From Roseomonas sp. GC11 (GTDB lineage: Bacteria > Pseudomonadota > Alphaproteobacteria > Acetobacterales > Acetobacteraceae), in contig NZ_JANFNY010000001.1 of NCBI RefSeq assembly GCF_024437745.1, forward strand, positions 1-64,000: a stretch of 64,000 bases of DNA. The letters run 5' to 3'. The translations under genes and the position numbers were made by a program. Shown piece by piece: positions 14,323-39,926 of the stretch; position 1 is the stretch's first letter; every line of letters starts with the position of its first letter. The notes under the pieces are model-generated. The model worked only from the letters and a program-made list of their open reading frames with translations, ran no database searches and was not told where the DNA came from.

Positions 14323-16635
14323 ATGACCCTGTTGGCCAATCTCAGCGTCGGGCGGAAGCTCGCGCTTGCCGCCATCCTGCCGCTGCTGCTGCTGGGTGGC
14401 ATGATTGCCGTCGTCTGGAATGCGCTCGGCCAGATCGAGGAGAATTTCGCGCAGGAGGTGACGGCGGATCAGGTGAGCAGCCGCCTGATCCATATCGAGG
14501 TCGTGGTGAACGAAGCCCGCGTGCATCTGCGGGACGTCATCAACGCCGACATGCCGCGGGATCTTGACAGGGCGGAGGGGCTCGGTGCGCAAGCGATGGC
14601 AAAGGCCGAAAACCTTGCCCGCGAGGCGCTGCGCGATGCCACCAGCCCTGCCGTTCAGGCAGCGCTGCGCGATGGTCTGGAGCGCTTCCGGGAATATGGC
14701 GAGGTGCGGCAGCGCGTGATCGCCGAGCGGCGGCAGCTGCTGGCGACACGGGACCGCTTCTTCGCCACCGGCCGGGAGTATGAGCGCCGCTTCGAACTGG
14801 CGGCGGGCGAGATGGAATTCGCGCCCGCCTCGCCCGAGCGCGACGAGCGGCGCCAGCGCCTGCTGGCCCTGAACCGCGCCGCCACGGATATCCGCATCGC
14901 CCTGCTGGAGGAGTTGAGCATGGCGGATGAGGCGCGCAGGCGGCGTGTCATCAGCGCCGCGCAGCAGATGCGCGTCTATCTGCGGCCCCTGGCCAACCTG
15001 CCGCCCAACCCGGTCGATCTGCGCCCGCTGACGGCGCAGGCGGAGCAGATGGCGGTCCTGGCGGAGGGGGTTCTGGCCTCGCTGGACGCGATTGAGATGC
15101 TGCGCCGCACCGGCGTGGTGCCCAACCGCGAAAGGATGGAGGCCGCCCTGGAGGCCGCCGCCTCGGCGATGGAGATCGAGGAGCAAACCACCGTCGCGCG
15201 CCTGAATGCCAGCCTGGAGATGGCGCGCATGGCCATGCCGCTGGTCAGCGCGGTGATGGCGGCGCTGCTGATCGGCCTCGGCCTGATGAATGCCCGCGCC
15301 ATCGGCCGGCCGCTGAACGCGCTCTCCGCCATGGTCGCCGCCCTGGCGCGCGGCGAGGTGACGGAGAAGATCGCCGGCGAGGGCCGCAGGGACGAGATCG
15401 GCATCATCGCCGGGGCGCTGCGCAGCCTGCAGGCCACCGTCACCCGCGCCTTCGCCCAGGGGCAGATGCTGGAGCAGGTGCCGCTCGGCGTCATGGTGTG
15501 CGAGCCGGGTGGGGCGCTGCGCATCACCTACGCCAACGCCACCAGCAAGGCGGAGCTGGCGCGGATGGAGAAGGCGCTGGCCTGCAAGGTGGCCGAGCTG
15601 GAGGGGCAGAGCATCGACGTGCTCAACGACCCGCGCAACCCGCAGCCGCTGCGCGCCCTGCTCGCCGACCCCGCGCGCCTGCCCTATGCCGGGCAGATCC
15701 GGCTGGGGGAGGAGGTGCTCTCGCTCCGCGCCACCGCCATCCGCGATGCGCGCGGGCAGTATCTCGGCCCGATGCTGAGCTGGTCCGTCGTCACCGCCCA
15801 GGCACGCCTCGCCGAGAGCTTCGAGGCGGAGGTGGGCGCGGTGGTGGCCGCCGTGGCGCGCTCCGCCACCGAGTTGCAGGAGTCCGCGCGCGGCATGAGC
15901 GGCAGCGCCCGCCGCTCGGGCGAGGAGGCCACGGCCGTGGCCAGCGCCAGCGAGCAGGCCGGCAGCAGCGTGCAGGCCGTGGCCGCCAGCGCCGAGGAGC
16001 TGGCCGCCAGCGTGGCCGAGGTGACGCGGCAGGTGCAGAGCGGCGCCACCGTGGCGCGCGACGCGGCGGAGGAGACACGCCGCGCCGATGCCACCATCCG
16101 CAGCCTCTCCGAGGCCGCCGAGCGCATCGGCGAGGTGGTGGAGCTGATCAGCAACATCGCCGGGCAGACCAACCTGCTCGCCCTCAACGCCACCATCGAG
16201 GCGGCGCGGGCGGGGGAGGCGGGGAAGGGCTTCGCCGTCGTCGCCAGCGAGGTGAAGAACCTCGCCAGCCAGACGGCCAAGGCGACGGAGGAGATTTCCA
16301 GCCAGATCCAGTCCATCCAGGGCAGCACCGCCCAGGCGGTGGCGGCGCTGCGCGGCATCGGCGCCACGGTGGAGCGGATGAACCAGGTGACCGCCACCAT
16401 CGCCGCCGCGGTGGAGGAGCAATCCGCCGCCACGCAGGAGATCGCCCGCAGCGCCGCCCAGGTCTCGGACGGCACGCAGGCCGTCAGCCGCCGCATCGGC
16501 GATGTCAGCGCCGCCGCCTCGGAGACGGGGCAGGCCGCGGCCTCGGTGCTGGAGGCCGCGGGCGGGCTCTCGGGCCAGGCGGCGGCCCTGCGCAGCAAGG
16601 CGGATGAATTCCTTCGCTCCGTGCGCGCGGCGTGA
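14323..16635 (+). CDS. Methyl-accepting chemotaxis protein
   Basis: Transmembrane chemoreceptor of 770 residues. It has a first membrane helix (about residues 10-30, [20 protein letters not shown]), a helical periplasmic sensory domain to about residue 300, a second helix ([19 protein letters not shown], about 304-325), a HAMP domain ([21 protein letters not shown]), a PAS-like segment (about 385-490, [19 protein letters not shown]) and the signalling domain with the hairpin tip [22 protein letters not shown]. No CheB/CheR-binding pentapeptide is visible at the C-terminus (SVRAA). No other chemotaxis gene is in the window. The start has GTGGAGG upstream. Confidence 0.95.
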
Positions 16636-16690: not shown

Positions 16691-16719
16691 CTTGCCCCCG
16701 TCCCGCGCCCTGCCTATCG
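16691..16719 (+). promoter_or_regulatory. Predicted leuA leader promoter
   Basis: CTTGCC, a spacer of exactly 17 bases and CTATCG match the alphaproteobacterial housekeeping consensus. The predicted start is 16726-16728, at or within 2 bases of the leader-peptide ATG, so the transcript would be leaderless. Confidence 0.55.
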
Positions 16720-16727
16720 TCGCGAGC

Positions 16728-16835
16728 ATGAACGCCACCGCGCGCCTTTCCGTGCTGATGAACGGCCCCGCCGCCGTCACCGCGCGCGCGCTTTCCGGCC
16801 TCCTTCTCCTTCGACTTAGCCGCCCCTGGGCGTGA
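16728..16835 (+). CDS. leuL: leuA leader peptide (35 aa, leucine-rich)
   Basis: A short frame upstream of leuA encodes a peptide with eight leucines in 35 residues, five of them clustered (GLLLLRLSRPWA at the C-terminus). The cluster is coded CTC CTT CTC CTT CGA CTT; CTT and CTC are minor leucine codons in this CTG-dominated genome, which suits control codons. No ribosome-binding site is evident, but the predicted promoter puts the transcription start at the ATG. Leaderless leader peptides are known for the trp attenuator of Sinorhizobium. Role in leucine-sensitive attenuation is inferred. Confidence 0.6.
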   Translation: MNATARLSVLMNGPAAVTARALSGLLLLRLSRPWA

Positions 16836-16890
16836 CGCCCGGCTGACCTGCCGGCATCGCTCAGGGGATAGACCCCGGGGGGCACCCCCC
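16821..16890 (+). promoter_or_regulatory. Candidate leuA attenuator structures
   Basis: Overlapping, mutually exclusive pairings follow the leucine codons: GGGCG-TGA-CGCCC (16828-16840, spanning the leader stop codon), CCCCTG (16823-16828) with CAGGGG (16862-16867), GGGG with CCCC (16864-16876), and GGGGGG with CCCCCC (16877-16890). The last hairpin has no following T-tract, so a classical intrinsic terminator is not shown. Switching between structures by ribosome position is inferred. Confidence 0.4.
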
Positions 16891-16948
16891 TCAGGCGCCA
16901 CGCGCGCCTCTCGCGGCACGGCATAAGTCAGAACGAAGGAACGCCCCC

Positions 16949-39726: not shown

Positions 39727-39802
<76 letters not shown>

Positions 39803-39850: not shown

Positions 39851-39926
<76 letters not shown>

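Follow-up and report, generated by a model that had tools for sequence, protein, structure and literature searches.

A leucine codon-rich leader in front of leuA in Roseomonas and other Alphaproteobacteria, with a predicted role in translation initiation

The leuA locus and its leader

The window, i.e. the whole stretch of 64,000 nucleotides analysed here, carries a leuA gene preceded by a short reading frame rich in leucine codons and, 5′ of both, by a methyl-accepting-chemotaxis-like gene that ends at 16635 (Table 1). The encoded LeuA is 94% identical to that of P. cervicalis, the source genome belonging to the Roseomonas/Pseudoroseomonas group, and the genome has one close LeuA. Elsewhere in the window two tandem tRNA genes with identical scores were found (39727-39799 and 39851-39923).

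The original prediction described a frame of 35 codons with eight Leu codons, five of them clustered as CTC or CTT, which are rare against CTG, and this description holds: seven of the eight are CTC or CTT, five lie inside the run CTC CTT CTC CTT CGA CTT (16800-16817), and leuA itself uses 44 CTG, 2 CTC and 0 CTT codons. The promoter given there as CTTGCC-N17-CTATCG is the same site as the TTGCCC-N17-TATCGT listed in Table 1, read one base out of register. Since only 7 nt separate the −10 element from the leader ATG, transcription is predicted to start at or next to 16728. In 71% of 78 Roseomonas-group loci the distance from the end of the best −35/−10 pair (within 60 nt) to a leader ATG is 5-9 nt, against 8% in shuffled DNA, and a spacing that fits leaderless mRNA was also seen in most other Acetobacteraceae loci, whilst in loci outside the Acetobacteraceae the same promoter-pair test gave no evident spacing of this kind. 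Given a promoter spacing that fits and is kept throughout the Acetobacteraceae, the leader transcript is expected to be leaderless.

Table 1. Features of the leuA leader region in the window.
Feature	Position	Strand	Evidence
−35 element TTGCCC	16692..16697	+	sequence; CTTG at equal distance kept in relatives
−10 element TATCGT, N17 after −35, 7 nt before leader ATG	16715..16720	+	sequence, relatives
Leader ORF, 35 codons plus TGA at 16833-16835, peptide MNATARLSVLMNGPAAVTARALSGLLLLRLSRPWA*	16728..16835	+	sequence, relatives
Leu-codon run CTC CTT CTC CTT CGA CTT A, candidate sensor and 5′ side of putative SD-hiding stem, includes invariant CGACTT	16800..16818	+	pairing, folding, alignment
Stop-codon helix, 5′ strand CCCCTGGGCG	16823..16832	+	covariation
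Stop-codon helix, 3′ strand CGCTCAGGGG	16858..16867	+	covariation
Downstream G/C hairpins (CAGGGG..CCCC and GGGGGGCACCCCCC), without T-tract, differing between clades	16862..16890	+	sequence, consensus folds
Base stem, 3′ strand CGGCATAAGTCAGAACGAAGGAACG, leuA Shine-Dalgarno GAAGGA at 16935-16940	16919..16943	+	pairing, folding
leuA, 2-isopropylmalate synthase, 528 codons	16949..18535	+	ORF and LeuA similarity

Distribution and conserved structure of the leader

The leader frame lies 5′ of leuA in all Roseomonas-group loci that were fetched by LeuA similarity and have enough upstream DNA (L033 and L079, where the locus sequence ends at the gene, were left out of this count), and the comparison of leuA upstream regions proposed for related Acetobacteraceae thereby bore out the Leu-rich frame in all usable relatives and far beyond that family. 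A covariance model of the leader's 3′ part (R1) found a match in 354 of 395 genomes from the order, a single one in nearly every case, and, under strict filters, in 60 of 385 genomes sampled from the whole class, in many alphaproteobacterial families. Among the class-wide matches whose sequence was read, 28 of 29 have the core and all 28 lie directly 5′ of leuA; a further set gave the same result. The 65 genomes matched by a second model (R2) in a phylum-wide draw all belong to the window's own class, with no R2 match in that draw outside the Alphaproteobacteria. The element precedes both types of LeuA, the window-like one and a distant actinobacterial-like one (27-29% identity; L125, L126 and L129). 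Searches of Rfam 15 returned no leucine leader over the region, at the gathering threshold or at E values up to 10, and on the loci the sole match was an unrelated terC in L125. Four Acetobacteraceae genomes (G143, G182, G239 and G377) have two element matches each, possibly marking an additional leuA or another gene under such control, and small-genome Acetobacteraceae (genera g2 and g3 and several g13 genomes) are mostly without an R1 match.

The stop-codon helix is formed by CCCCTGGGCG and CGCTCAGGGG, which enclose the stop codon of the leader frame, and among Roseomonas-group leaders the aligned nucleotides CTTCGACTTANNCGCCCCTGGGCG...CGCTCAGGGG are nearly invariant. Across 84 diverse sequences 97.6% of cells are paired and 7 of the 10 pairs show changes on both sides, values to be read with the fact that for L119-L217 complementarity was used to find the 3′ end of each sequence, a procedure that biases this test towards pairing. 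All five measures beat all 500 shuffles and drop sharply when the partner strand is slid, and a motif-anchored alignment restricted to Roseomonas (A1) separately shows T-A to C-G and G-U to A-U or G-C replacements. The end of the peptide, RL(S/T)RPWA in relatives with the variants RPWV, RPRA and RP*, changes in step with the helix: RPRA occurs with CCCGGGG, and in L061 and L066 the Trp codon of RPWA has become a stop (TGG to TGA), the peptide ending RLTRP* and an A-U pair replacing G-U. Both the Trp-to-Arg and the Trp-to-stop change fit the partner strand, and the helix variant CCCTTAGGCG/CGCCTAAGGG accompanies a TAG stop. The RP* form of L061 and L066 is the usual one in other families, most of which, beyond the Roseomonas group, end the peptide in LRLxRP* with the TGA inside the helix, RPWA being the variant. 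The inner hairpin over the stop codon is thus strongly supported by covariation.

A further conserved segment is CGACTT(A), at 16809-16818 in the window and at the homologous positions elsewhere, which is invariant at synonymous sites, the rare Arg codon CGA included. No break in it was seen among the loci retrieved through LeuA similarity; in later loci it served as the anchor, so that the way these were picked contributes to its constancy there. Base pairing between CGACTT and the start region of leuA was considered as the cause of this invariance and rejected for loci beyond the Roseomonas group.

Co-evolution and predicted pairing of Leu run and leuA Shine-Dalgarno

In the minimum-energy fold of the window leader, which lies 2.65 SD below dinucleotide shuffles (z = −2.65), the Leu run CCUUCUCCUUCGACUUA pairs with UAAGUCAGAACGAAGGAAC in the leuA start region. 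When the start region of each species was shuffled for comparison, the duplex of Leu run and Shine-Dalgarno (SD) came out weak case by case (6% at p<0.05) because short GC-rich regions form strong chance duplexes, and this score was replaced by a swapped-partner test, in which native and swapped Leu run/SD strands are compared with row and column effects removed. Native partners pair 2.1 kcal/mol better than swapped ones (z = −10.5, 155 loci; z = −7.7 outside the Acetobacteraceae), against −1.6 and +0.6 for a control segment of the leader frame; leuA starts of L119-L217 were assigned partly by SD strength, which affects native and swapped pairs alike. When segments were scanned along the leader, co-evolution with the SD region peaked at the Leu run (z = −9.3), fell on both sides and was about 0 in distant segments. 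Near-perfect pairs of unrelated sequence occur in L213 (GCCUCACC/GGUGAGGC), L203 (UUCUCUCGCU/AGCGAGAGAA), L193 (AACUGCCUU/AAGGCAGUU), L215 (CUUCUACGA/UCGUAGAAG) and L133 (CUUCGGCUGC/GCAGCCGAAG). Consensus folds computed separately for each clade show a stem that closes over the stop-codon helix in most clades, its exact strand shifting; in several clades (Neoroseomonas, part of Roseomonas) pairing between Leu run and SD is weak, and the closing stem is built from other segments of the leader frame. A small hairpin within the last 25 nt before the leuA ATG holds the SD in one clade (L017-L026), its stem covarying (AGGG/CCCU, GAGG/CCUC, AGGGG/CCCCU), and may be a second layer of SD sequestration.

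The effect of a ribosome on this pairing was modelled by folding. In the window a mask on the Leu codons lowered the cost of opening the SD from 10.7 to 6.1 kcal/mol, whilst a ribosome placed at the stop codon left it at 10.7 kcal/mol. Over 160 loci the Leu-run mask lowered the median opening cost from 6.4 to 3.9 kcal/mol and a control mask had almost no effect (Wilcoxon p = 1.7e-10), the median effect being modest and its direction opposite in 8% of loci.

These data suggest that the leader is a leucine-sensing switch of leuA that acts on translation initiation, i.e. a translational attenuator, a reading based on sequence comparison and modelling to which we assign a probability of roughly 0.7; that ribosomes stall on the leader, that leucine is the signal and that control is exerted on translation are what we infer from them. 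Ribosomes would load straight onto the leader frame of a transcript whose start, judging from the promoter spacing, lies at or next to the leader ATG. With leucyl-tRNA plentiful they would pass the Leu codons and leave the leader, whereupon the Leu run together with CTTCGACTTA would pair with the leuA SD region in a stem closing over the stop-codon helix and keep leuA translation low. With leucyl-tRNA scarce a ribosome would halt on the Leu codons and cover the 5′ strand of the stem, so that the SD would be free and leuA translated. A ribosome covers about 12 nt past its A-site codon; if the first CTT of CTTCGACTT occupied the A site, the ribosome's edge would come to lie near the 5′ end of the stop-codon helix, which could therefore stay formed.

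Control codons, a stop-codon helix and competing downstream hairpins are also the parts of a classical attenuator, and the leader ribosome might instead set whether the stop-codon helix forms or a hairpin further downstream, which would terminate transcription either intrinsically without a T-tract or via Rho on the untranslated stretch before leuA. Hairpins of the CAGG..CCTG (3:4) type in Belnapia and Neoroseomonas and T-runs after the helix in a few loci (L119, L136 and L183) speak for such transcription attenuation, but a 3:4 terminator hairpin conserved in general was rejected, being confined to some clades, and the window has no T-tract after its downstream hairpins and hence no intrinsic terminator of GC hairpin plus T-tract before leuA. 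At least 5 T in the 8 nt after the helix were found in 21% of loci against 12% in shuffled sequence, a slight enrichment near chance, and transcription attenuation would leave the co-evolution of Leu run and SD region unexplained; we regard it as rather unlikely. Conservation of the stop-codon helix and of the Leu run/SD pairing, set against downstream hairpins that differ from clade to clade, suggests that translation initiation is the step controlled. Of the leucine-sensed attenuation by a leaderless peptide originally proposed, the Leu-rich leader and, within the Acetobacteraceae, the leaderless-type promoter spacing are thus conserved, whereas classical termination by competing hairpins found no support: the helix spanning the stop codon is real and covaries, and the G/C hairpins downstream are present but differ between clades. 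The suspicion that the missing T-tract hints at a non-classical mechanism proved well founded, since T-tracts are near chance and the stop-codon helix and the Leu run/SD pairing are conserved instead.

An RNA conserved to this degree could also be bound by a regulatory protein, with the Leu frame adding little or nothing to sensing. CGACTT and CCCC..GGGG are indeed conserved far beyond the needs of sensing, the invariance of CGACTT is left unexplained by pairing outside the Roseomonas group, and mutants of the Streptomyces coelicolor leader are inconsistent with classical attenuation (PMC1262725). Protein binding of this sort would not account for the Leu codons, frame and stop position being kept across the class, stop-codon changes that fit the helix included, or for the Leu-run frame lying near the SD-pairing strand throughout, and we consider it improbable. 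Still less credible, in our judgement very improbable, is a leader whose product is a small protein with an independent function. Its C-terminal RLxRP(WA) is kept across relatives, and the Sinorhizobium meliloti trp leader peptide has a role in trans (PMC7298713), but the N-terminal two thirds of the peptide differ between families, its length varies between 14 and over 40 residues, and its end shifts with the RNA helix (RPWA, RPRA, RP*). The translational switch predicted above remains our preferred reading.

Relation to known leaders

In classical attenuators (trp, his, ilv) control codons of a leader peptide serve as sensor and the stop codon lies inside or near an RNA helix. The window element shares with these and with the gammaproteobacterial Leu leader (Rfam Leu_leader) the use of leader-peptide Leu codons for sensing and a stop codon in or near a helix, but differs in giving no Rfam match even at E 10, in having no U-tract terminator and in its predicted SD sequestration. 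Translational attenuators of the ermC/cat type, where stalling of a ribosome within a leader ORF exposes a hidden SD, share the step that folding predicts for the window, but sense a drug through nascent-chain arrest and not the supply of an amino acid.

The original prediction drew a parallel with the Sinorhizobium trp leader, of which the leaderless-type spacing holds. In S. meliloti trpL/rnTrpL a leaderless leader peptide is combined with transcription attenuation that yields an sRNA, and the peptide has a role in trans (PMC7298713, PMC10117765). What is shared is an alphaproteobacterial leader peptide from a leaderless transcript (predicted in our case), whereas Trp codons, the sRNA-producing transcription attenuation and the trans-acting peptide are different and no stem between control codons and SD has been described there. 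The actinobacterial LEU element has a Leu uORF before leuA, a stem between Leu run and leuA SD, and a pseudoknot or hairpin inside it (Seliverstov et al. 2005, PMC1262725). Binding of a regulatory protein was suggested for it by these authors, and the S. coelicolor leuA leader has a similar architecture, so that its mutants, mentioned above, weigh somewhat against our reading as well, although those results were set against classical attenuation and not against the SD-hiding model (PMC1262725). In S. lividans the leuA leader peptide leuL1 is leaderless and without a typical Rho-independent terminator (PMC8079986).

The short uORF with its Leu run before leuA, the base stem between Leu codons and leuA SD (seen here by sequence and folding) and the inner structure are shared with the LEU element, as are, with S. 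lividans, the leaderless transcription predicted here and the lack of a typical terminator. We found the base stem in the three actinobacterial loci examined, from Nocardia (weakest), Nonomuraea and Microbacterium, whilst R1 gave no credible match in four actinobacterial leuA loci (L085-L088). The two differ in having no detectable sequence match, in the CGACTTA and CCCC..GGGG helix that make up the core of the window element, in its occurrence before both LeuA types and in phylum; moreover, the inside of the base stem is a pseudoknot or hairpin in the LEU element and a hairpin over the stop codon here. By analogy, the window element appears to work like the LEU element, which is the nearest to it in design, and not the Sinorhizobium trp attenuator. 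LEU-like leaders also precede actinobacterial-type leuA genes on S. meliloti pSymB (L218 940-1150; run CTTCTTCTTCTC, SD region GAAGAGAAGC) and in a Rhizobium locus (L220 1050-1190; CGACTTAGCCGCGG with CCGTTGC/GCAACGG), and both look intermediate, possibly linking to the actinobacterial element. It is a doubtful but conceivable extension that the leucine-sensing, terminator-free leaders of Alphaproteobacteria and Actinobacteria belong to a single ancient class, whose sensing codons double as the anti-Shine-Dalgarno strand, and that the alphaproteobacterial form adds to it an invariant CGACUU signal recognised by some factor or through a tertiary contact.

In the open literature searched, which leaves subscription papers aside, no description of the alphaproteobacterial form was found; Vitreschak and colleagues reportedly predicted attenuators of branched-chain operons in alphaproteobacteria in 2004, which may cover part of the present finding. 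If the proposed reading is true, much of a bacterial class would have a key biosynthetic gene under a terminator-free leader that is absent from Rfam 15 and from the open literature covered here, and leucine would be sensed by the very codons that mask the ribosome-binding site. A leader peptide that is conserved and predicted to be leaderless would be added for the Alphaproteobacteria, and the actinobacterial LEU element would gain a counterpart in another phylum whose strong covariation makes the mechanism testable by compensatory mutations.
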